Shown here piece after piece: positions 5,547 through 18,008 of a stretch of 36,538 nt of DNA; within the stretch, counting starts at the first letter, position 1, and the number at the start of each line of letters is the position of its first letter. Where the stretch lies: NCBI GenBank assembly GCA_003221805.1, contig QHUA01000108.1:1-36538 (forward strand), given 5' to 3'. Below the pieces are notes generated by a model, which saw only the letters and a list, made by a program, of their open reading frames with translations, had not been told where the DNA came from and did not search any database. The stretch comes from Gemmatimonadota bacterium. Lineage in GTDB: Bacteria > Gemmatimonadota > Gemmatimonadetes > Gemmatimonadales > Gemmatimonadaceae. The position numbers and the translations under genes were made by a program.

Positions 5547-6518
5547 CTGAGTGAAATCAGGGAGTTTCCCGTCGAGGCGGACAGCAATGTCCGCCTCGAT
5601 CTCTTTATTGCCCAGCGCGCTGAGCTTTCGAGGACGCAGGCGGCAACCCTCATCGCGCAGGGACACGTCCTGGTCGATGGCCGCCGCGAGAAGGCGAGTT
5701 ACCGGCCCGAGGAAGGAGAGCTGGTCCGGGTCGAGATCCCCAAGGTTGAAAAGCGGATCATCACCGGCGAGGCCATACCGATCACCATCGTCTACGAGGA
5801 TGAATCGCTGCTCGTGGTCGATAAGCCCGCCGGAATGGTGGTCCATCCAGCGCCTGGCAACTGGAGCGGTACGCTGGTCAACGCGCTGATGGGACGCGGC
5901 GGCGACCTGTCGAAGGAGGGCGATCCGGAGCGGGCTGGCATGGTTCACCGGCTCGACAAGGAGACTTCGGGCCTCCTGATCGTCGCCAAAACCGATCGAG
6001 CGCATCGGGTATTGAGTAGCGCGATTGCCGCTCGCCGGGTGGTCAGGCGCTATGCCGTCATGATCTGGGGTCACCTCTCGTCCGACTCCCTCACAATCGA
6101 CAAGCCGATAGCCCGCGATCCACGAGACCGGAAGCGCATGGCAATCGTCAATAAGGGTCGGCCGGCCAAGACCGACGTCACACGCCTTGCTCGGTTCGAT
6201 GCGGGGGACCTTCTTCGTGCCCATCTCCATTCCGGACGGACTCACCAAATCCGCGTTCATCTCGCGTCTATCGGCCATCCTGTCATGGGCGATGACGTGT
6301 ATGGAGGGGGCGGAGGACGTCGTGTGGCCGGACTTCCTCCCAAGCGCCATTTCCTCCACGCGGCCTGGCTCGCGTTCGATCACCCAGTGACAGGCAAGCC
6401 CCTCGATTTCCGCTCACCTCTGCCCGAGGATTTGCGCCGCGCACTTGCCACGATTGCCGGGGAGCACGCGCTTCCGGCCGGCGTGGATCCACTCGTCGCG
6501 CTTCGGTTCTATGAGTGA
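5547..6518 (+). CDS. rluD: RluD-type 23S rRNA pseudouridine synthase, apparent CTG start
   Basis: A 323-residue RluA/RluD-family pseudouridine synthase that modifies large-subunit rRNA uridines. An S4 RNA-binding domain occupies about residues 12-75 (RLDLFIAQRAELSRTQAA onward). The catalytic domain starts at IVYEDESLLVVDKPAGMVVHP. The catalytic Asp137 lies in HRLDKETSG, and the domain ends with GRTHQIRVHLASIGHPVMGDDVYGG and HAAWLAF. The first canonical start codon in frame is an ATG at 5814, which would delete the S4 domain and the start of the catalytic core. Starting at CTG 5547 gives the family length of about 320 and is backed by GGAGAG at 5534-5539. An untested alternative is a one-base sequence error joining the GTG at 5551. 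The end overlaps cheW by 8 nt. Confidence 0.88.
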   Translation: MSEIREFPVEADSNVRLDLFIAQRAELSRTQAATLIAQGHVLVDGRREKASYRPEEGELVRVEIPKVEKRIITGEAIPITIVYEDESLLVVDKPAGMVVHPAPGNWSGTLVNALMGRGGDLSKEGDPERAGMVHRLDKETSGLLIVAKTDRAHRVLSSAIAARRVVRRYAVMIWGHLSSDSLTIDKPIARDPRDRKRMAIVNKGRPAKTDVTRLARFDAGDLLRAHLHSGRTHQIRVHLASIGHPVMGDDVYGGGGGRRVAGLPPKRHFLHAAWLAFDHPVTGKPLDFRSPLPEDLRRALATIAGEHALPAGVDPLVALRFYE

Positions 6519-6978
6519 CGCCGTAGCGGTGCCGCCAGAGGAGGTGTTAGCCGAGGAGCCACAGGTACCGACCAGGCGACTGCTGGTGTTCGACGTTGGC
6601 GGGCACGGCTATGCGTGCGACATGGACGCATTTCGGGAAACGCGGCTGCCAGGTGCTCCGGAAACCATCTGCGGGCTCATCAATCTGCGTGGAACGATTG
6701 TGACGGTGATCGACGGCGGCGCGGCGCTGGGCAAGCGGCCATTCAAGAGGGCGGAGGGCTTGATTCTCCTCGCTGAATACCAGGAGCGATGGGTCGGAAT
6801 AGGGGTCGACGATGTGCGCGACATTCAGGATGTGCCGATAAACCTGTTCGCGTCTCCTGGCGAGACGGGGATTTCTCTGGCGGGTGCGGTAACTGGGGCG
6901 GTAGAGATCGATGGAGAGCGGGTGCTCGTTCTCGATATCAAGACGGTGGTTCAGCAAGTAATCGGACAAGGGAGGTAG
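6511..6978 (+). CDS. cheW: CheW-domain chemotaxis coupling protein
   Basis: A 155-residue protein made almost entirely of one CheW domain (about residues 20-150). The domain is recognised by RRLLVFDVGGHGYACDMDAF, by GLINLRGTIVTVIDGGAALG, and by the late AGAVTGAVEIDGERVLVLDIK. CheW joins the CheA kinase to receptor tips in arrays. The ATG at 6511 lies inside the end of rluD; an upstream start at 6445 would add rluD-antiphase sequence with no CheW similarity. It is the first gene of the chemosensory block and is followed 1 nt later by cheY. No receptor gene is nearby, so its partner must be encoded elsewhere or be non-canonical. Confidence 0.93.
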   Translation: MSDAVAVPPEEVLAEEPQVPTRRLLVFDVGGHGYACDMDAFRETRLPGAPETICGLINLRGTIVTVIDGGAALGKRPFKRAEGLILLAEYQERWVGIGVDDVRDIQDVPINLFASPGETGISLAGAVTGAVEIDGERVLVLDIKTVVQQVIGQGR

Positions 6979-6979
6979 G

Positions 6980-7342
6980 GTGAGCAGCACTGTGCTCGTT
7001 TGTGATGATGCCGTGTTCATGCGGACAATGGTCAGCGACATCCTGTCCCAGGCCGGGTTCACGGTGGTCGGCGAGGCGGAGAACGGGAAGCAGGCGGTGG
7101 AGAAGTACCAGCAGCTGAAACCGGACCTGGTCACGATGGACATTATCATGCCGGAGATGGGTGGCATCGAGGCGGTCAAGCAGATCACGCAGCTGGATCC
7201 TGCCGCGCGGATTCTCATGTGCAGCGCCATGGGTCAGCAGGCGCTGGTGCAGGAAGCGTTGCAGGCGGGGGCTCGCGACTTCGTGGTGAAGCCATTCCAG
7301 CCAAGCCGCGTTCTCGAAGCGGTACAACGGGTGCTCGCCTAA
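6980..7342 (+). CDS. cheY: CheY-like single-domain response regulator
   Basis: A 120-residue stand-alone receiver domain. The acidic pocket is Asp9-Asp10, the phospho-acceptor is Asp54 (TMDIIMPEMGG), the conserved hydroxyl residue is Ser82 (MCSAM) and the switch lysine is Lys104 (VVKPF). The start is GTG, preceded by GGGAGGTAG at 6970-6978, a strong ribosome binding site. The stop touches the GTG of cheA with no gap. With no output domain it should signal by protein-protein contact after phosphorylation by the adjacent CheA. The target here (a flagellar switch, the GTPase module or another) is unknown. No flagellar gene lies in the window. Confidence 0.94.
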   Translation: MSSTVLVCDDAVFMRTMVSDILSQAGFTVVGEAENGKQAVEKYQQLKPDLVTMDIIMPEMGGIEAVKQITQLDPAARILMCSAMGQQALVQEALQAGARDFVVKPFQPSRVLEAVQRVLA

Positions 7343-8962
7343 GTGGACACCGGCCGCTACGCCAAACTCTTTCTCTCGGAGAGTCGCGAAAGTCTCACCG
7401 AGATCAACAACGCGCTGCTGGAGCTGGAGCGCGGTGGAGGCGATGCGGCCGTTGCCAGACTCTTTCGCGCCGTCCACACGATGAAGGGGATGGGCGCGGC
7501 GATGGGCTACACGTCGGTGGCGGATCTTTCCCACGAGCTCGAGACGTTGCTGGACAAGGTCAGAAACGGAGCCATCGTCGTCGGCCGGCCCGTGATCGAC
7601 ACGCTCTTCGCGGGAGTAGACTCACTGGAGCAAGCGGTGGACTTGGCGACCGCGCCGACTCCCCAGCAGCTGGATGTCACCAAAGTCATCGCTCGGATTC
7701 GTGAGACGGCGAGCCCCGAGGAGGTCACGCAGACCTTCACCTCGGAGTTCGCCATCGCTGCCGGTGAGAAGAAAATGCCGGCGCCCGCGTCGGACGTGCC
7801 GGCTCCTCTTCCAACCCAAAAAGCACCCCGTCATATACGCATCGAGTCCAAGCGGCTCGACACACTGATGAACGTGGTCGGAGAGCTGGTGATCGCTCGC
7901 GATCGCATCGCAAAGGTGGCGGAACGCCTTGGCGACGACGAGCTGGCAGAATCCATTCTGCGGGCCTCGCAGATTCTGGCCAATCTGCAGAACGAGATCA
8001 TGACCAGCCGGATGGTTCCCGTCTGGCAGGTGTTCGAGCGATTCCCGCGTGTCGTCCGCGATACCGCCAAAGCCTTGGGCAAAGAGGTCGACTTCAAGAT
8101 CGAAGGCCGCGAGATCGAGCTCGATCGCTCCATGCTCGACGAGATGGGTGAACCCGTGTTGCACCTCCTTCGCAACTCGCTCGATCACGGTATCGAGGCT
8201 CCCGCCGAGCGGGAGAAGAAAGGGAAGCCGCGCGTCGCGACGTTGATTCTGACGGCGGAGCGCGATCGCGCCACGGTGTTGATTCGCGTCACCGACGACG
8301 GACGCGGCATCGATCAAACGCGGGTGTTGCCGCGGGCGAAGAAGATGGGCCTCGTCGACAAGGAGACGACCAGGCTCACGGAGCAGGAGCTAGTGGCGAT
8401 CATCTCCCGGCCGGGCTTCTCCACCGCTGAAAAGGTGACGGAGATCTCCGGCCGCGGCGTCGGTTTCGACATCGTCGCGAACCGTGTTCGGGCACTCGGC
8501 GGGTCGCTCGAGGTGCACACCGACGCCGGACTCGGCACCAGCGTCAGCATGCGCCTGCCTCTCACACTCGCGATCTCGCGCGCGCTCCTGGCGAAAGTCC
8601 AGAAGGAGACGTATGCGATACCCCTTACCCACGTTCTGGAGACGTTCAGTCTTTCCAAGCCGATGTTACTGGAGTCGAAGGGCCGGCTGGTGGTGGCTAT
8701 TCGCGACGATCTTTTTCCGGCGATCTGGCTTCGTGAGCGTGTCGGCCTGCCACCGACGGAGAGCGCTGCAGCCGGCCAGGTCGTGCTCATCGAGCTGGCC
8801 GAGCGCAAAGCGGCGCTGATTGTAGATGAATTCGTTGGGCAGCAGGAAATCGTGGTCAAGCAATTCGATGGCGTGAACGACAGCAAAACTCTCTTCAGCG
8901 GCGCGACCATTCTTGGCGATGGCTCGCCCGCGCTCATCGTGGACGCTTCCAGTCTCCTCTGA
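7343..8962 (+). CDS. cheA: CheA chemotaxis histidine kinase
   Basis: A 539-residue class II histidine kinase. The N-terminal HPt domain carries the phosphorylated His45 (FRAVHTMKGMG). A linker of about 60 residues, with a Pro/Ala-rich part near 140-155, stands where a CheY-binding P2 domain would be, so P2 seems absent. The P3 dimerisation helices begin at HIRIESKRLDTLMNVVGELV. The P4 ATPase domain has Asn278 (N-box, HLLRNSLDHG), DDGRGID at 318-324 and GRGVGFD at 370-376. A CheW-like P5 domain completes the protein. It starts at GTG directly after cheY. All catalytic residues are intact, so the kinase should be active. Confidence 0.96.
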   Translation: MDTGRYAKLFLSESRESLTEINNALLELERGGGDAAVARLFRAVHTMKGMGAAMGYTSVADLSHELETLLDKVRNGAIVVGRPVIDTLFAGVDSLEQAVDLATAPTPQQLDVTKVIARIRETASPEEVTQTFTSEFAIAAGEKKMPAPASDVPAPLPTQKAPRHIRIESKRLDTLMNVVGELVIARDRIAKVAERLGDDELAESILRASQILANLQNEIMTSRMVPVWQVFERFPRVVRDTAKALGKEVDFKIEGREIELDRSMLDEMGEPVLHLLRNSLDHGIEAPAEREKKGKPRVATLILTAERDRATVLIRVTDDGRGIDQTRVLPRAKKMGLVDKETTRLTEQELVAIISRPGFSTAEKVTEISGRGVGFDIVANRVRALGGSLEVHTDAGLGTSVSMRLPLTLAISRALLAKVQKETYAIPLTHVLETFSLSKPMLLESKGRLVVAIRDDLFPAIWLRERVGLPPTESAAAGQVVLIELAERKAALIVDEFVGQQEIVVKQFDGVNDSKTLFSGATILGDGSPALIVDASSLL

Positions 8963-8963
8963 A

Positions 8964-9611
8964 ATGACCAATCCCCGCGACACACCATCTGGCGACAGCG
9001 GCACCACGCTCCTGAGCACAGCACGGCTCGACGCGCTCCGCGAAGTGGCAAACATCGGCGCCGGTCACGCCGCGACGGCTCTTTCAACTCTCACCGGCAC
9101 CCGCATCATGATCAGCGTGCCGATGGTCAACATCGTGCCACCGGGCGATTTCGTTCCCGAGCTCGAGCCGGGTGTGGAGATTGTCGCCGTCCAGATGGCG
9201 ATGAACGGGGACATCGCCGGCCAGACGGTCTTTCTGTTGGCGATCCCCGCCGGACTCCGACTCGCCGAGCGCATGCTGCGGCGGAAGCGCGGCACGTCAC
9301 CGAATCTTGGAAAGCTCGAGCAGTCCGCGCTCAACGAAGCGGGAAATATTCTCGCCGGCGCGTATCTTACAGCGCTCAGCGAGTTCCTCGACATGCGGTT
9401 GATGCTTTCGCCGCCACGCCTCATCACCGGAGAGGCTGGTATCGCGCTCAGCACACTCGGTGATCACGCCCCGCGAGTGGAGTCGCCGATTCTGTGCGTT
9501 GAGACCGAGTTTTTCCTCGAGGAGCCATCGGAGAGCCTGCATGGCTTCTTCCTGCTCGTCCCCGATCCGAAAGCATTCGACGCCATCTTCCGCGCGGTCC
9601 GAGTAGAGTAG
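8964..9611 (+). CDS. cheC: CheC-type CheY-P phosphatase
   Basis: A 215-residue CheC/CheX/FliY-family protein that dephosphorylates CheY-P. Both pseudo-repeat active sites are intact: Glu27-x2-Asn30 with Pro53, and Glu125-x2-Asn128 with Pro150/151. These fit the E-x2-N-x22-P signature. Length is typical of CheC and lacks the C-terminal CheW-like or FliN-like parts of CheV or FliY. The ATG at 8964 is 1 nt after the cheA stop; an open frame from 8913 inside cheA would add non-family residues. In Bacillus and Thermotoga CheC is activated by CheD, but no cheD is present here. It supplies the signal-termination step of the neighbouring cheA-cheY pathway. Confidence 0.92.
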   Translation: MTNPRDTPSGDSGTTLLSTARLDALREVANIGAGHAATALSTLTGTRIMISVPMVNIVPPGDFVPELEPGVEIVAVQMAMNGDIAGQTVFLLAIPAGLRLAERMLRRKRGTSPNLGKLEQSALNEAGNILAGAYLTALSEFLDMRLMLSPPRLITGEAGIALSTLGDHAPRVESPILCVETEFFLEEPSESLHGFFLLVPDPKAFDAIFRAVRVE

Positions 9612-9615
9612 TCTC

Positions 9616-12057
9616 ATGAGCCCAGCGGCAACTGCCCGCCCATCGGCAGCCGCGCACGGCGGTGAGATCGACATCCTCCGATCGTTCGCTCGTCGAATCG
9701 ATCCATCGGACGCGGGCGCCTACAACAATCTCGGAGTCTTCTATTTCAGAAAGGGACTGACCGAGGAAGCGATTGCTGCGTTCTCGCGCGCGCTGGCGCT
9801 CGACGAGCGTATGGGCGTGGCCCGCCGGAATCTAGAGATCGCCTATGGTGAAAGCGGGATTCTCGAGCGGCGCCTACAGGACCTGGAAGAGCGCCTGCGC
9901 ACCAACCCTGATGATCTCGAAGCTCTGGTTCAGAGCGGAATAGCCGAGAAGACAGCCGGACGTCTCGAGCGCGCACACTCGCTCTTCCAGCGGGCCATCG
10001 AGAAGGATCCGGACAGCTCGGTGCTCCACTTCCTGCTCGCGGAAACGCTGTACAACCGGGGTCTGCACGAAGAAGCGATGCGCTCGGTGAAGCGCTCGAT
10101 CGAGCTGAATCCCGAGAACCCGGACGCGCTTTACCTGATCGGATTCATTCTCGGCGATCTCGGCCGCGGTGAGGAGGCAGCGGAGGCGAACCGCCGCGCA
10201 GTGATGCTCAATCCGACGCTCGTCCGGGCGCAGGCTAACCTGTCGCTAGAGACGTACCGGCACGAAGTGACGCCGAGTCACCCGCAAAGGACTTCCGCCA
10301 GCGCGCACATCACTCTTGGCCGCGCGCTGCGACAGAAGGGCTACTTCCAGGAAGCGCTGCGCGAGTACGAGAAGGCGATGGAGGGCGGCGAAGGAAACGC
10401 CGAAGTGCTGATGGCGATGCTGGAGCTGTACCTGCTACAACGCAACACTGGCGCAGCCATCGCCACCGCGGATCGGTTCGCCCGCGAATTCTCGGCGACG
10501 GCAAAAACGTGGAACGGACGTGGTGTCGCCCTCCAGCTAGAGAGTCGTCACGCTGAAGCGGAACAGAGTTACACTCGTGCGCTGGAGATCGACTCGAGCT
10601 ACCCCTTCGCGCACAACAATCTCGGCGTTCTGCTCTGGCACAAGAGCGACACCAAGGGTGCGATCAACTCCTTTCGGCGAGCGTTACACACTCCGAATCC
10701 GCCGGTGGAAGCCCGACTCAACCTTGCGCTCGGGCTGTTTCGCCGTAAACACACCGAGCTCGCGCTCGAGGCCTATCGCCAGGTTCTGAGCTCCGCCCCC
10801 GAGCATCCAGTTGCGTGGAACGGTATCGGCCTGATCCTGGTCGATCTCGAGAAATACTCGGACGCGCGCAACGCCTTCGCGCGCGCAATCCAGGCCAATC
10901 CGGACTTCGCCGAGGCTCATTACAACATGAGCTTCACGCTCTCGAACCTCGGGGACTTTGCGGCCGCTTTACGCGAGACCAAGCGCGCGTTGGCGCTCGA
11001 CCCGATGTACACGCCGCAGAAGCTGGAGCTGGCGATCGAGCTGCCGCACGAGGAGATCCGCCTCACCGTTGCTCCGCCAATCACCGAAAAAGACGAGAGC
11101 GTCGATCACGTCGAGGATTTCCACTTCGATCCTGCCATCATCGAGGCGCTCTTCGCCGAGAAGCCGGCGCGTCTGACGCCGACTGGACAGAGCGCCATGA
11201 CGGGTTACACACTCGCCCGCGATCTGATCACCAAAGGATTGTACGATCGGGCCCAGGGTGAGATCGCGCGCGTTCTCGCGCGCGGCGGCGACAAGGTTCT
11301 CGGACTGGTGCTTGCCGGTGACGGCTTCGCCGCGCAGGGCCTGCACGGAGAAGCGCTGGAGCGCTACCGGCGCGCGCTCGACATGGAGGACTCGAATCCT
11401 TATGCGCGGCAGGGGATCGCTCGCTCGCTGCTGGCGCTTGGCCGCGCCGACGAGGCGCGCCCACACGCGGAAGCGCTGGTAGAGGTCGGAAGCACGGACG
11501 TCAACCTTCTCCTTCTTGCCACCGAAGCGCGGGTGGCGTCCCTGGACAAACCTGGTGCGCGCGAGATCCTGATAACGCTGCAGAAAAGCGAGGCGCGCAA
11601 CGCCAACGTCCTCAAGCGAGTGGGTGACTTGTACGCCGCCCTTGGCGACACGGACGAAGCGATCGGCGCGTACCGCAGCAGCCTCGGCATCGACGAGCGG
11701 CAGACCGAGACGAGAGTCTCACTGGGGCGGCTGCTCGCCAAAGCGGGGGACGACACTGCGGCAATCAGGGAGCTCGAGAGTGTCCTTGTCACGGCGCCCA
11801 ATCACGACATTGCAGTGGTGGAGCTCGTCGGGCCGTATCGTCGCACGGGTCGCTCGCGCAGCGCACTGCCGCGCATCGTTGCGCTCATTCGCCGTGACGT
11901 CTACCACTTCGCTGCACTGATCGCATTGGGCGAGATCCTGATCGATCTGGCGCGGGAGAATGACGCGCTGAAGGCATTCGAGCGAGTACTGCGCTTCGAC
12001 CCGAATCACTCGGAAGCGCTCCGGTATCGCCGGCTGCTTCTGCGAGGGCGCATCTGA
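9616..12057 (+). CDS. Large tetratricopeptide-repeat protein
   Basis: An 813-residue soluble TPR protein with no signal peptide or membrane helix. Repeats begin near residue 33 (AYNNLGVFYFRKGLTEEAIAAF) and continue to the C terminus, interrupted by an acidic, less regular section at about 480-530 that separates two TPR blocks. Clear units include AHNNLGVLLWHKSDTKGAIN and AWNGIGLILVDLEKYSDARN. TPR solenoids are protein-interaction scaffolds, and no enzyme domain is visible. The gene starts 4 nt after cheC and its stop shares one base with the next ATG. I infer a scaffold linking the Che proteins with the PATAN, roadblock and GTPase proteins; the specific partner is unknown. Confidence 0.85.
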   Translation: MSPAATARPSAAAHGGEIDILRSFARRIDPSDAGAYNNLGVFYFRKGLTEEAIAAFSRALALDERMGVARRNLEIAYGESGILERRLQDLEERLRTNPDDLEALVQSGIAEKTAGRLERAHSLFQRAIEKDPDSSVLHFLLAETLYNRGLHEEAMRSVKRSIELNPENPDALYLIGFILGDLGRGEEAAEANRRAVMLNPTLVRAQANLSLETYRHEVTPSHPQRTSASAHITLGRALRQKGYFQEALREYEKAMEGGEGNAEVLMAMLELYLLQRNTGAAIATADRFAREFSATAKTWNGRGVALQLESRHAEAEQSYTRALEIDSSYPFAHNNLGVLLWHKSDTKGAINSFRRALHTPNPPVEARLNLALGLFRRKHTELALEAYRQVLSSAPEHPVAWNGIGLILVDLEKYSDARNAFARAIQANPDFAEAHYNMSFTLSNLGDFAAALRETKRALALDPMYTPQKLELAIELPHEEIRLTVAPPITEKDESVDHVEDFHFDPAIIEALFAEKPARLTPTGQSAMTGYTLARDLITKGLYDRAQGEIARVLARGGDKVLGLVLAGDGFAAQGLHGEALERYRRALDMEDSNPYARQGIARSLLALGRADEARPHAEALVEVGSTDVNLLLLATEARVASLDKPGAREILITLQKSEARNANVLKRVGDLYAALGDTDEAIGAYRSSLGIDERQTETRVSLGRLLAKAGDDTAAIRELESVLVTAPNHDIAVVELVGPYRRTGRSRSALPRIVALIRRDVYHFAALIALGEILIDLARENDALKAFERVLRFDPNHSEALRYRRLLLRGRI

Positions 12058-12800
12058 TGGCGATCGAAGGCCCGCTGCGCGAGCTCGGCATCCACGACGT
12101 CTTCCAGCTGCTCGACCTGAGCCGGAAGACGGGTGTCCTGCGCGTGCATTCCCCGGAGCGAAACAACGAGGGAAGCGTGTTCTTCGATGCCGGCACCATC
12201 GTCGCGGCGACAATGAAGAGCAACCCGCATCTGCTCGGGACGATCCTCGAGCGCTCGGGAAAAGCGACCGCAGCGGATCTCGCGCGCGCCACGGCGATGC
12301 AGCGAGCCGGCGACAAACGAAGGGTCGGCGAGATCCTCGTCGCGCACGGCATCGTTACGCCGAGAGACATCGACCGGTTCATGCGGCAACAGATCGAGAC
12401 GGTGGTATTCGATCTGATGTCGTGGTCTGAAGGATTCTTTTCGTTCACCGAGGAGCCGCCGCGACCAATCCGCAAGGACATCGCCGTCAGGGTCAGCACC
12501 GAGTCGCTGCTGATGGAGGGCGCGCGACGCATTGACGAGTGGTCTCGCATGGCGGACAAGATCCCGGACGCCCGGGTCACGCCTCGCCTCGCGCCGCTCG
12601 ATGACGGGCCGGAGTCGTTCATAGACCTGCTGCCCCGCGAGTGGGAAGTGCTGTCGGTGATCGATGGCGAGAGGAATCTGCACGAGATAGCGAAAAGGCT
12701 GGTCCTACCCGAATTCGAGGTCGCGAAGATCATCTACGGAATGTTGAGCACCGGGCTGATCGAGATCGCGCCGCAGGAACATGACGCCGCCAGTGTCTGA
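12057..12800 (+). CDS. PATAN/DUF4388-domain protein with inserted GspE-N-like segment
   Basis: A 247-residue protein opening with the PATAN/DUF4388 pattern: IEGPLRELGIHDVFQLLDL, KTGVLRV, and GSVFFDAGTIVAA. Residues about 60-120 contain RRVGEILVAHGIVTPRDIDRF, which resembles the N-terminal domain of GspE/PilB-type ATPases. The C-terminal part (about 150-240) has ESLLMEGARRIDEWSRM and a winged-helix-like stretch ending FEVAKIIYGMLSTGL. The start and C-terminal sections are paralogous to the PATAN-TPR protein at 14831. PATAN proteins are best known from cyanobacterial PatA-type regulators and are widespread in myxobacteria. It overlaps the next gene by 20 nt. The role is inferred to be an adaptor in the GTPase module. 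Confidence 0.82.
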   Translation: MAIEGPLRELGIHDVFQLLDLSRKTGVLRVHSPERNNEGSVFFDAGTIVAATMKSNPHLLGTILERSGKATAADLARATAMQRAGDKRRVGEILVAHGIVTPRDIDRFMRQQIETVVFDLMSWSEGFFSFTEEPPRPIRKDIAVRVSTESLLMEGARRIDEWSRMADKIPDARVTPRLAPLDDGPESFIDLLPREWEVLSVIDGERNLHEIAKRLVLPEFEVAKIIYGMLSTGLIEIAPQEHDAASV

Positions 12801-13167
12801 GTCCGCACGGACGCTCTTCGCCACGGCGATCGGCGAGGCCGAGCAGACGGCGTTGCTCCTCGACTCGTCGGGGGCGCCGCTGGCGGGCAGCTACATCGAC
12901 CACCGCGGTCGCGACATCTCGGACGAGATCGGCGCAGCGCTGAGCGGCGTGAGCACGGAAGTCTCCCGGTCGATGCGGCTGCTTTCGATCGGTCGCTGGA
13001 CGGCAGTCGTCGTCGAGACTGACGCCGCAACGATCGCGCTTGCACCTGCCGCCGAGGATGCGGTCGTTCTGCTGGCATCGTCATCGACGGTGCCGCTCGG
13101 ACTCGTGCGCCGGGTGCTGACGCGGTCGGTCGCGCTGGCGATCAATTGGATGCGGGGTCGCGTATGA
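12781..13167 (+). CDS. Roadblock/LC7-like protein 1
   Basis: A 128-residue protein with the alternating strand-helix pattern of roadblock/LC7 domains: TALLLDSSGAPLAGSYID at about 22-39, a central helix, ATIALAPAAEDAVVLLASS, then a long C-terminal helix. Similarity is modest, so the fold assignment rests on pattern and context: three such genes precede an MglA-type GTPase. In Myxococcus and Thermus the roadblock protein MglB is the GAP or GEF of MglA. The ATG at 12781 lies within the end of the PATAN gene. The stop overlaps the next start (ATGA). Confidence 0.7.
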   Translation: MTPPVSESARTLFATAIGEAEQTALLLDSSGAPLAGSYIDHRGRDISDEIGAALSGVSTEVSRSMRLLSIGRWTAVVVETDAATIALAPAAEDAVVLLASSSTVPLGLVRRVLTRSVALAINWMRGRV

Positions 13168-13523
13168 AGGTGAGTCAGGTGGTCGCCACGCTATCGCACG
13201 TTCCCGGAGTCGTGGCGGCGATGGTTGTCGGCGCAGCCGATGGGCTGATTGTCGAGACGAGCGCGATGCTCGGCGCGACCGACGGCGGCAGCGATCCGAG
13301 GAAGCATACCGCGGCGCTGGCGGCCTATCTTTATGCGAAAGTAACCCGCGCTTCCGACGCAGCGCGTCTGGGCAAGCCCGCGTTCATGCGGTTGGAGGCG
13401 GAGATGGGTCACATCTGCGTCGTGGGGGCGCGCGACGTGGTACTCGTTACGATCGTCACTCCTGACGCCAACCTCGGACGAGTGAGACTCGACATGATGA
13501 CGGCAGCCAAGGGAGACCTGTGA
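13164..13523 (+). CDS. Roadblock/LC7-domain protein 2 (best MglB-like candidate)
   Basis: A 119-residue single roadblock domain. The opening VVATLSHVPGVVAAMVVGAADG and LIVETSA match the first helix and beta hairpin of the MglB/roadblock fold. The central helix carries AALAAYLYAKVTRASDAA, and the end FMRLEAEMGHICVV plus a final helix completes it. Of the three roadblock genes here this is the clearest. The ATG at 13164 overlaps the previous stop; an upstream ATG at 13146 would add six residues and is less likely given the coupling. The end overlaps the next gene as GTGA. I infer GAP, GEF or scaffold activity toward the GTPase at 14004. Confidence 0.78.
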   Translation: MKVSQVVATLSHVPGVVAAMVVGAADGLIVETSAMLGATDGGSDPRKHTAALAAYLYAKVTRASDAARLGKPAFMRLEAEMGHICVVGARDVVLVTIVTPDANLGRVRLDMMTAAKGDL

Positions 13524-14002
13524 CCGATCCGACAGTAGCCGAAGCCTGGGTTGCAGCGCCGCTCAGACGGCTGAAGGAAGATGCGCGTCTGATCTCGGGG
13601 GTTCTGCTCTATCCAACGGGCCGCGCCGTCGGTCAGTTCGGCTTTTCGAATGCCGCCGACGTAATGTCGATCTGCGCGCTCACCTCCGCGATCAATGCAT
13701 CCTCGCGCGAGCTGGGGCGCCAGCTCGATGGCAAGCCGTTCTACGAGCTGCATCACGCTGGCGCGGATCGCCAGGTATTCATGGCGCGCGCTACTTCGGG
13801 CGGCCAGGAATTTCTCTTCGTCGGTGTCTTCGATCGTGAGAGCTCGCTCGGTGTCGTCGAGATCTATTTCGCCGAATTCCAGAAGGCTCTCGAGAAATTG
13901 CGCCCGGAGAAACAGGTACCGGTGCCCGGGCCATCGGGCGATTTCGAGGGCGAGCTCAATCGGAGTCTCGACGCGCTCTTTGGTCCGATAGGAAAGCGCT
14001 AG
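13520..14002 (+). CDS. Roadblock/LC7-like protein 3
   Basis: A 160-residue protein starting at GTG, overlapping its neighbour by 4 nt. The first 125 residues show the roadblock order: a helix, then [20 protein letters not shown], a helix with [19 protein letters not shown], then [20 protein letters not shown] and a terminal helix. A tail of about 35 charged and Pro/Gly-rich residues follows. Similarity to the other two roadblock proteins is low, so they are not recent duplicates. Being immediately before the GTPase gene (1 nt gap), it is a good candidate for direct contact with it. The fold call is moderately secure; the function is inferred from position. Confidence 0.68.
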
Positions 14003-14003
14003 G

Positions 14004-14609
14004 ATGTCGGTCGTCAATTACGGCACGCGCGAGATCACGTGCAAGATCGTTTACTATGGGCCGGGGAGATCGGGGAAGACGACGAATCTCCAGCACGTCT
14101 ACTCGAAATTGCCGGAGGAGCGTAAGGGGAAGATGGTCTCGCTGGCGACGGAGACCGATCGCACGCTGTTCTTCGACTTTCTTCCCCTCGACCTCGGTAC
14201 GATCTCCGGCTTCGCGACGCGCTTCCAGCTGTACACGGTTCCCGGGCAAGTCTATTACGCCGCCACGCGGAAGCTCGTGCTGCAGGGGGTCGACGGCGTC
14301 GTTTTCGTCGCCGACAGCCAGTCGCGTCAGTTGGCGGAAAACATCGAGAGCCTGCAGGACCTCCACGCCAATCTCGCCGACGAGGGACTGGATCCGCGGA
14401 CCATCCCGCTGGTGATGCAGTACAACAAACGCGATTTGCCCGCCGGCGAGATCAGCGCCATCGCAGACCTGGATGGGACGCTCAATTTTCGCGGCGTGCC
14501 CCATTTCTCGGCGACGGCGATCACTGGCAGCGGCGTGTTTGAGACCCTACGCAGCATCTCCAGCCTGGTGCTGTCGCGCCTGAGCGCGCCGGCTACCAAA
14601 GGCTCCTGA
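14004..14609 (+). CDS. mglA: MglA-like small Ras-type GTPase
   Basis: A 201-residue GTPase closely resembling Myxococcus xanthus MglA, the polarity switch for gliding and type IV pili. The P-loop is GPGRSGKT at 19-26. [17 protein letters not shown] includes Arg53, the G3-equivalent is T78-V-P-G-Q82, and G4 is NKRD at 141-144. As I recall, Arg53, Thr78 and Gln82 are the numbered functional residues of the Myxococcus protein, and they fall at the same numbers here. The ATG at 14004 is 1 nt after the third roadblock gene. All nucleotide-binding motifs are intact, so it should cycle GTP. The effector may be the adjacent TPR and PATAN proteins, pili or envelope machinery. Confidence 0.93.
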
Positions 14610-14611
14610 GA

Positions 14612-14830
14612 GTGGCGAAGGAAGCCGAGCAGAAAGCGGAAGAAGAGGGCGGCGAGTTCGCCGATTTCCTTGCCGATGTCAGCAAGGAGATCGCGCAGCG
14701 CGTCGAGTCGCTCGACAAGCGCGCCACACCGGCGGCAACGGAAAAAAAGAAGACGCCGGTCGTCGCCGATGCTGGAGTCATCGTCGAGTGGCCGAACGTC
14801 GCCGATCGGATGATCGAGGAGATGCGCTAA
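14612..14830 (+). CDS. Small charged hypothetical protein
   Basis: A 72-residue protein that I do not recognise. It starts at GTG 2 nt after the GTPase stop and abuts the ATG of the PATAN-TPR gene without a gap. The N-terminal half is Glu/Lys-rich and helical (KEAEQKAEEEGGEFADFLAD). The middle has a Lys run, and the C terminus has a compact motif, VIVEWPNVADRMIEEM. There is no signal peptide or membrane helix. Its spacing within a tightly coupled chain supports translation. It could be a small adaptor of the GTPase, but no family is evident. Confidence 0.6.
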   Translation: MAKEAEQKAEEEGGEFADFLADVSKEIAQRVESLDKRATPAATEKKKTPVVADAGVIVEWPNVADRMIEEMR

Positions 14831-16123
14831 ATGGCTATCAAAGGTAGCCTCAAGGAAGCGAGCCTCCCCGACGTCTTGCAGCTCCTGTCGATGGGAAAGA
14901 AAACCGGCTGCCTCGGCCTTTCCTTCCACGACAGCTTCGGCTCTATCTACTTCGACAATGGGCGCATCTGTCACGCAGCGATCGTAAACCGCCCTCTCGA
15001 CACAGAGAACGCCGTTTATACGCTGTTCACGTGGACGAGCGGCACTTTCAACTTCGAGCAGGGCGTCGAGCCGGAAGACGGCGCGGAGCGAGTTTCTGTC
15101 GATCCCCAATCGCTGCTGCTCGAGGGCGCGCGTCGCGTCGACGAGTGGTCATTGATCGAGAAGAAGATTCCAAGCTTCGATGTGGTCTTCAGCCTCGATC
15201 GACCCCGCCTGATGATGAATCGCGATCCGCTGTCACCGGAGCAGGAAGCGCTGCTGCCCCTGATAGATGGCCACCGCGACATCAACGGTCTGATTCGCGA
15301 TTCCGGGCTCGGCGAGTTCGAGGTTGGTAAAGCGCTGTACGGACTATTTAACACCAACTTCCTGCTCCCGGTCGGTCGTAAGCGTACAACCCCGACACTT
15401 CCCAGAAATGCCAGTCCTCTGGAGCGCCGCGAGCTGGCGAGTGCGTTGTACAGAGCGGGGATGCACGAGGAAGCGCAGCGCGAATTCCGGGCTCTGGTCG
15501 AGGAGGCTGCCGATCCCGTCGCGTCCTTTCACGTCGGACTGATCGCGCTGCGGCAGAAGGAATTGACCGGGGCAGTGAACGCATTTATGACAGCGGCGCC
15601 AAACGCTCCCAACAAGACAGCTTTGCTCCATAACCTCGCGCTGGCATACGAACAACTTGGCCAGTTGGAGAAGGCGCGATTGGTGATCGAGCGCGCGCTC
15701 ACCTCGGGCGGCAGCGGGGACCCGGTCATCCAGCTGGAGGCAGCCGTCATCGCGCTGCGACTGGCCGACTATCAGTCGGCGAAGGTTCGTTTGAGCGAGG
15801 CGCGCAGCCTTTGGACATCAAGTCCTCCGCCGGCCGTCTGGTTCCATTATGCGGCGCAGGTGGCGTCGGTAACGGACGATCCGGATCGCGAGATGCTGCT
15901 GCTCGCTGCGGCTACGGAAACTCATCCCGAGTCGCCAGTGCTCCTCAACAACCTCGCGGCTGGATATCTCAAGCGTGAGGACTTCGCGAATGCGCGCGAG
16001 GCCGCCGAGAAGGGCCTGGCGCTGGCCCCCGAGCTGCCGCAACTGCGGCGCAACCTTTCCGCCGCGCTGGAGGGAATAGCGCGCGTCGAGCGGAAGGGTA
16101 GCGAACCCTCAGCTCGTTCCTGA
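14831..16123 (+). CDS. PATAN/DUF4388 protein with C-terminal TPR repeats
   Basis: A 430-residue protein. Residues 1-75 form a PATAN/DUF4388 domain (LKEASLPDVLQLLSMGKKTG, GSIYFDNGRICHAAI). A linked region has QSLLLEGARRVDEWSLIEKK and a winged-helix-like LGEFEVGKALYGLF (to about 178). This is the same arrangement as the protein at 12057 but without the GspE-N-like insert. From about 195 to 425 there are TPR-like repeats (ALYRAGMHEEAQREFRALVE; LLHNLALAYEQLGQLEKARL; VLLNNLAAGYLKREDFANA). It is cytoplasmic with no catalytic motif. It sits between the GTPase block and cheR, so it may connect the two halves of the module. Confidence 0.82.
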   Translation: MAIKGSLKEASLPDVLQLLSMGKKTGCLGLSFHDSFGSIYFDNGRICHAAIVNRPLDTENAVYTLFTWTSGTFNFEQGVEPEDGAERVSVDPQSLLLEGARRVDEWSLIEKKIPSFDVVFSLDRPRLMMNRDPLSPEQEALLPLIDGHRDINGLIRDSGLGEFEVGKALYGLFNTNFLLPVGRKRTTPTLPRNASPLERRELASALYRAGMHEEAQREFRALVEEAADPVASFHVGLIALRQKELTGAVNAFMTAAPNAPNKTALLHNLALAYEQLGQLEKARLVIERALTSGGSGDPVIQLEAAVIALRLADYQSAKVRLSEARSLWTSSPPPAVWFHYAAQVASVTDDPDREMLLLAAATETHPESPVLLNNLAAGYLKREDFANAREAAEKGLALAPELPQLRRNLSAALEGIARVERKGSEPSARS

Positions 16124-16132
16124 GCCCACCAC

Positions 16133-16951
16133 ATGGTTTACGGCGATGACGCGGGATTCCGCATGCTGACGGAGAAGATCACGCGCGATCGAGGATTCCG
16201 CTGCTCCAGTTACAAGGACAAATGCCTGCGCAGGCGCGTAGCAGTGCGGATGCGCGCGAAGCAGACCACGAGTCACGCGGAGTATGCCAGCATTCTTGAC
16301 CACGATCCGCGAGAGTACGATCGGCTGATCCGGTCCCTCACGGTCAATGTGACGAAGTTCTTCCGCAACTGGGACACTTACTCGGTCATCGAGAAGAAAG
16401 TGATTCCTGCCTTGTGGGAACGCAGCGACGAGGAACTGCGCGTCTGGAGCGCCGGGTGTGCGTCCGGAGAGGAGCCTTACTCGCTTGGCATCCTCATGCA
16501 CAAGCACGCAAAGGAGACCAGGTCAACCTCCCATCTCGACAGCGTGTCCATTCTCGGCACCGACATCGACGGTGAATGCCTCGGCGAGGCGCAACGTGCG
16601 TTTTACGCGGAATCGGCGCTCGGGGACACACCGGCTTCGTTGCGCACGGAATACTTTCCCGAAATGGCAGGCCTGCACACGATGCTGCCGGAAGTCCGTC
16701 GTCTGGTGACGTTCGAGTGCAACGATTTGCTCAGCTACCAGGCACCGACGCAAAACGTTCACCTGTTGGTGTGCCGGAACGTCATCATCTACTTCGAGCG
16801 CGAAGCGCAGGACGCGCTATTCGCGGAATTTCATCGCCTGCTGGCGCCTGGCGGGTTCCTGGTGCTGGGAAAGGTCGAGTCGCTGCTCGGTGATGCGCGG
16901 AGCCTCTTCACGCCCGTCAATGCGCGCGAGCGCGTCTTCCAAAAGGCGTAG
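16133..16951 (+). CDS. cheR: CheR chemoreceptor glutamate methyltransferase
   Basis: A 272-residue S-adenosylmethionine-dependent O-methyltransferase that methylates receptor glutamates for adaptation. The all-helical N-terminal domain includes CLRRRVAVRM and NVTKFFRN (72-79). The SAM-binding core has SAGCASGEEPYS (106-117), an acidic ribose-binding site at TDID (143-146) and CRNVIIYF (214-221). It ends with the typical GGFLVLGKVESL. There is no C-terminal TPR. Length agrees with canonical CheR (about 270-285). The start is ATG, 9 nt after the preceding stop. A functional methyltransferase implies a methylated receptor somewhere in the genome, although none is in the window. Confidence 0.95.
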   Translation: MVYGDDAGFRMLTEKITRDRGFRCSSYKDKCLRRRVAVRMRAKQTTSHAEYASILDHDPREYDRLIRSLTVNVTKFFRNWDTYSVIEKKVIPALWERSDEELRVWSAGCASGEEPYSLGILMHKHAKETRSTSHLDSVSILGTDIDGECLGEAQRAFYAESALGDTPASLRTEYFPEMAGLHTMLPEVRRLVTFECNDLLSYQAPTQNVHLLVCRNVIIYFEREAQDALFAEFHRLLAPGGFLVLGKVESLLGDARSLFTPVNARERVFQKA

Positions 16952-16959
16952 GGCTGGCG

Positions 16960-18008
16960 ATGGCTGACGCGACCGAAAAAAGCACGACCGTCCTCGTCGT
17001 CGACGACAGCGCCTTCATGCGCCGGCTGATCGCCGAGCTGGTGGAATCTAGCGGAACATTTCGCGTGGTCGGTACGGCGGGGGACGGAATCGAGGCGCTG
17101 CAGAAAATCCGCGAGCTCAAACCAGATGTCGTTACTCTCGACATCGAGATGCCACGTCTGAACGGGCTCCAGGCCCTTGAGCAGATCATGGCGGAGATGC
17201 CGCGTCCAGTAGTAATGCTGAGCGCGGCCGGTTCCGAGCTGGGGAACGAGATGACGCTGCGCGCGCTCGAGCGCGGCGCGCTCGAGTTCGTGCGCAAGCC
17301 ATCGGGTCCGGTGAGCATCGATCTCGCGTCGGTGCGCGAGCAGCTGATGTCGGCGCTCGACGCGGCGCGGGCCGTGAACATGAAAGGGATTCGCGCGCCG
17401 GCGCCGCCTCCGCAACCACCGCATGCGGAACCTGCGCCGCGGAAATCGGCCGACGCGGCGACGAGGGTGGTGGCAATCGCGTCCTCCACGGGCGGCCCGC
17501 GCGCGCTGGCGGAAATCATTCCTCACCTGCCCGAAGACCTGGGCGCGGCGGTCGTGATCGTCCAGCACATGCCTCGCGAGTTCACCAGGTTGCTGGCGCA
17601 ACGTCTCGATGCCATGGGTCAGCTGTCGTCTATGTGGCGCCCGGTGGATATCACATTACGCTGGGCGGCGGCGCCGGAAACGCTTCGATTCAGCTCGACA
17701 CCTCGGCGCCGATGTGGGGAGTGAGGCCGGCAGCAGATCCGCTTTTCTTCTCTGTTGCCGACACTTTCGGTCGTGCGGCGATTGGTGTTGTGCTGACAGG
17801 TATGGGAAGGGACGGCGCAGAAGGGCTACGCAAGATCAGGCAAGCCGGTGGCGCGGGAATCGTGCAGGACCGGGAAAGCTCGATCATTTACGGAATGCCG
17901 CAGGCCGCGCTGGCGGTGGCCGGGGCGGACCGCGTGGCGACCGTGAACGAGATCGCGCCGCTTATCACCGAGCTGTGCGTCGACAGGACGCGAGGTATTG
18001 GCGTGTGA
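16960..18008 (+). pseudogene. cheB: cheB protein-glutamate methylesterase, disrupted by an internal out-of-frame deletion
   Basis: The receiver domain (Asp15-Asp16, phospho-acceptor Asp61 in LDIEMP, RKP near 111) and the first half of the methylesterase domain are read in one frame from 16960. They include IASSTGG with the catalytic serine and VQHMPREFT with the catalytic histidine. That frame then ends at a TGA at 17722-17724 after about 30 unrelated residues. The rest ([36 protein letters not shown] with the catalytic Asp, YGMPQAA) continues in another frame from about 17628 to 18008. In CheB about 20 residues normally lie between RLD and VYVAPGG; here 17 nt remain. This implies loss of roughly 43 nt near 17616-17632. 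It may be real gene decay or an assembly error. The first product lacks the catalytic aspartate. Confidence 0.9.

Follow-up and report, generated by a model that had tools for sequence, protein, structure and literature searches.

cheB of a Gemmatimonadota draft genome: a break seen in the sequence and very likely absent from the organism

Is cheB broken in this organism, or only in its assembled sequence? The question is raised by a chemosensory cluster in which cheB, situated after cheR and ahead of an rmlB-like gene, changes frame within its catalytic domain. The window (the whole stretch of DNA analysed, 36,538 bases) is the entire contig C72 of a draft of 3.14 Mb in 247 contigs that is 91.8% complete. 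The nearest named relatives of the draft are Gemmatimonadetes/Gemmatimonadaceae metagenome genomes, presumably of permafrost and soil origin to judge from their isolate names. The cluster contains cheW, cheY, cheA, cheC/cheX-like, TPR, DUF4388, roadblock and MglA-like genes; these names were given by eye, except those of CheA, CheR and CheB.

The break in cheB

The features on which the argument turns are as follows.

7343..8962, + strand: cheA, the kinase of the same cluster, intact
16133..16951, + strand: cheR, the methyltransferase, intact, the neighbour expected of a CheB gene
16960..17626, + strand: 5' part of cheB, with the receiver, the linker and the first 52 methylesterase positions (Ser, His), 69-82% identical to 8 relatives
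17626..17627, + strand: junction, without the 43 nt found in 7/7 aligned relatives, read here as a probable lossy contig join
17627..18008, + strand: 3' part of cheB, read in a second frame, with methylesterase positions 66-174 (Asp) and the stop at 18006-18008, 67-82% identical to 8 relatives
17629..17724, + strand: out-of-frame tail of the 5' ORF, with a stop at its end, unmatched in that frame by the intact relatives

The gene (16960-18008) keeps one frame as far as about 17626; from about 17627 onwards it is in a second. Its 5' ORF, 16960-17724 (254 aa), encodes an N-terminal receiver domain (PF00072, E 1.2e-22, residues 11-118) followed by positions 1-52 of the 174 in the CheB methylesterase profile. 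The profile search places positions 66-174 in the other frame and finds 53-65 missing, so that the assembled gene has no complete C-terminal methylesterase domain in a single frame. The motifs of the catalytic triad, which we take to be Ser in IASSTGG, His in VQHM and Asp in GMGRDG, are all there but divided, the first two in the first frame and the third in the second. An earlier note on this DNA had described just such a division of the triad, and had placed the break inside the catalytic domain at 17616-17632, a range that includes the frame switch at 17626/17627.

The same note had estimated that about 43 nt were missing and had proposed a comparison with cheB of sister genomes. In the DNA alignment, exactly 43 columns present in all seven aligned relatives are absent from the cheB of the window, and the bases kept on each side of the gap meet at 17626/17627. 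The net loss against one relative, G011, calculated from protein coordinates, is also 43 nt. In close relatives at the genus level, cheB is a single unbroken open frame of around 365-377 codons; the filter used yielded an ORF at 15 of 17 loci (the exceptions being L028 and L032), and the comparison left out partial matches in G012, G018, G019 and G039. The window resembles the typical CheB (PF00072 + PF01339; solved examples 6ymz and 1a2o) in having both domains and an adjoining cheR, and the intact CheB of one relative (L037) aligns with both structures along nearly its full length. What sets the assembled esterase domain apart is a switch of frame and the absence of profile positions 53-65.

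Apart from the 43-nt gap, no further lesions were seen in either half of cheB. Against the five nearest relatives, both halves have a dN of 0.11-0.15 and a dS of 1.1-1.8; judged from these rates (dN/dS of about 0.1), both are under strong purifying selection. Since even the nearest relative is distant (dS >1), a recent true deletion would leave no trace in dN/dS.

The earlier note had also suggested that the 43 nt were lost by slippage between short TGTCG/GTCG repeats. This idea was rejected: when the two ends of the loss were compared in the seven relatives, direct repeats came to 0-2 matching bases, which is no better than at random positions (mean 1.9). The absence of microhomology at the cheB join argues against slippage.

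Losses and gap sizes across the draft

The other genes of the window keep a single frame when compared with G011 (around 0-28.6 kb) and G002 (4.6-31.5 kb), and in the ORF comparison with G011, cheB is the sole frame change in the window. A comparison of 495 kb of the draft (G000) with 1.63 Mb of G011 gave 165 orthologous ORFs and 57,668 aligned residues. Clean net losses, of 43, 47, 55, 62, 67, 67, 70 and 91 nt, were found in eight of the 165 draft ORFs; a ninth, of 59 nt, emerged when the comparison was reversed. Besides cheB, the genes concerned are those of a methyl-accepting chemotaxis protein (MCP), an M1-like peptidase, a HAD hydrolase, a lactonase, a MalK-type ATPase, an ABC permease, an aldo/keto reductase and ETF alpha. 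In the reverse direction, G011 itself has no loss of at least 11 nt in any of the 165 ORFs, nor is there one in the 110 ORFs of the control relatives G002, G005, G009 and G014. Fisher's test gives p = 1.3e-4 for 9/165 versus 0/275, although the genes of one set of 165 are for the most part those of the other, so that the two are not independent; for 8/165 against the 110 control ORFs alone, p = 0.023. Losses like that of cheB thus affect genes of the draft that are unrelated to one another, and are absent from the relatives compared, as an assembly artefact would have it.

These counts depend on which frame changes were retained. Direction A (the draft ORFs against G011) gave 13, from which eight were counted; those set aside are three small ones (-1, -8, 2), an N run and 40 nt extra in G000, the last being at a gene boundary. 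Direction B, the reverse, gave 10: the 59-nt loss was added, those of 43, 47 and 64 nt repeat events of direction A (64 corresponding to the 70 of A), and the remainder consists of a 14-nt etfB loss, left uncounted, and five small changes. The 110 control ORFs had 12 frame changes, with net values of 1, 10, -20, -2, -22, -2, 1, 1, 1, 1, -1 and -44, no loss among them exceeding 10 nt.

At L237:1702-3356 (contig C39), ETF beta lacks 14 nt and ETF alpha 91 nt in comparison with G011, which puts two breaks within around 1 kb. Clean losses of 47-70 nt, together with one N run about 50 nt short, occur at L230:5324-8406, L175:7632-11001, L178:8227-9354, L236:5849-6550 and L152:10248-12015, in transporter, hydrolase, lactonase, aldo/keto reductase and peptidase genes.

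The gaps that the assembly does mark are also informative. The fetched stretches of the draft contain 11 short N runs of 9-197 N, a count that leaves out four stretches that are N throughout. Relatives give a true gap of 117 nt for each of the runs of 67 and 69; the run of 197 corresponds to 235 nt in eight relatives and 241 nt in seven, and the run of 9 to 70 nt in three relatives (both by hand, the former from alignment rows). For a further run, of 88 N, none of 18 relatives provided a match. All four measurable runs of the 11 are therefore 38-61 nt too short, a shortfall close to the size of the clean losses and one that speaks for an artefact.

In the one MCP gene that was detected in the genome (L152:4231-6083, contig C28), an out-of-frame loss of 67 nt interrupts the reading frame; in four relatives the gene is whole, with open frames of 624-640 residues. 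Two chemosensory genes, cheB and this MCP, are therefore among the approximately 10 losses, which, taken alone, would also fit a decay of the system. That idea, prompted by the split MCP, was dropped because like losses occur in ABC transporter, peptidase, hydrolase, lactonase, aldo/keto reductase and ETF genes.

Assembly, deletion or a split protein

The break in cheB is, with high confidence, an artefact of draft assembly, as judged by comparison of sequences. It would have arisen when two contigs, both ending within cheB and separated by about 43 nt, were joined and the bases between them left out. If gaps were recorded 38-61 nt short, a true gap of around 40-70 nt would not be recorded at all, and the contigs would abut. 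There is no N in the window at the cheB junction, which in itself counts against an artefact; however, with joins recorded around 40-60 nt too close, a 43-nt gap would leave no N, as in cheB. The etfB and etfA losses, at 14 and 91 nt, are outside the 43-70 nt range and also count against this reading. We infer that a scaffolding or gap-closing step caused the losses.

Such faults have precedents. Cooley and Wright (2024, PMC11017572) report that assembly errors underlie many purported bacterial pseudogenes; there too, apparent breaks come from assembly and not from decay. They tallied frameshifts and internal stops across a large number of genomes; the signature here is one of losses of tens of nucleotides at what look like joins in a single draft. 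A 2012 paper (PMC3504050) describes negative and under-predicted gaps as known scaffolding faults, with scaffold gaps estimated as negative or too small, as seems to be the case here; the faults described there concern eukaryotic drafts.

Another possibility is that the 43-nt out-of-frame deletion is real and fixed, which would make cheB a recent pseudogene and leave CheR methylation without demethylation by this CheB. The sequence as given supports this, as does the out-of-frame loss in the only detected MCP, and in cheB alone a recent real deletion would look just like an artefact. It is the pattern across the draft that favours an artefact: similar clean losses, not present in relatives, are scattered over unrelated genes, and the gaps marked by N fall short to a similar extent. 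Nor does the junction have slippage repeats or either half a second lesion, and dN/dS is around 0.1. A real deletion is consequently very unlikely. The wider proposal, that the losses in both cheB and the MCP are real and that the lineage has recently given up receptor adaptation but retained CheA, CheW, CheY and CheR, is less likely still. The two outcomes envisaged in the earlier note have therefore fared differently: an assembly fault agrees with the recurrent losses of 43-91 nt and the short N runs, but an adaptation system with methyltransferase and no methylesterase does not find support.

The deletion might instead be carried by some cells of a mixed population, the assembler having chosen or merged that path. 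Strain mixtures are common in metagenome data, and a draft in 247 contigs whose named relatives are metagenome genomes could be of this kind. However, independent minority deletions of similar size would then be needed in around nine genes, and the N runs that are too short would be left unexplained, so that we consider this highly improbable, more so than the wider proposal above. Finally, cheB might be functional as it stands, either as two polypeptides or through a programmed frameshift, given that each part is open in its own frame and conserved. But the fold is short of around 13-14 residues (profile positions 53-65), so no frameshift can restore the CheB domain; moreover, the segment is kept in 7/7 aligned relatives and similar breaks affect unrelated genes. 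A functional split is scarcely credible, the least so of the readings weighed here.

Consequences for the chemosensory system and for use of the draft

Assembly error would also account for the break in the MCP, which probably shares the explanation given for cheB. A second CheR, together with a free-standing CheB domain without a receiver, is found intact at L001:608-2085 (contig C165), where the pair adjoins a response-regulator/histidine-kinase gene; similar short CheB frames are found in relatives. The idea that this second cheB has taken over was set aside, as it is a different gene with no bearing on the break.

From 6445 to 18008 of the window, TPR, DUF4388, roadblock-like and MglA-like GTPase genes (domains assigned by eye) lie between the chemosensory ones. 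Because of this interleaving, and because the only detected MCP is on another contig, the target of the chemosensory output may be surface motility instead of a flagellum.

At the sampled rate of nine clean losses of 43-91 nt per approximately 173 kb of compared coding sequence, the whole draft would, by extrapolation, contain breaks of this kind in numbers of the order of 150. Claims of gene loss, and gene breaks, taken from this draft are therefore unreliable without reads. As for cheB, the sequence has the break, but the organism very likely does not. In the living cell the gene is most probably whole, and the organism would then keep an ordinary CheB, with receiver and methylesterase, beside CheR, CheA, CheW and CheY.
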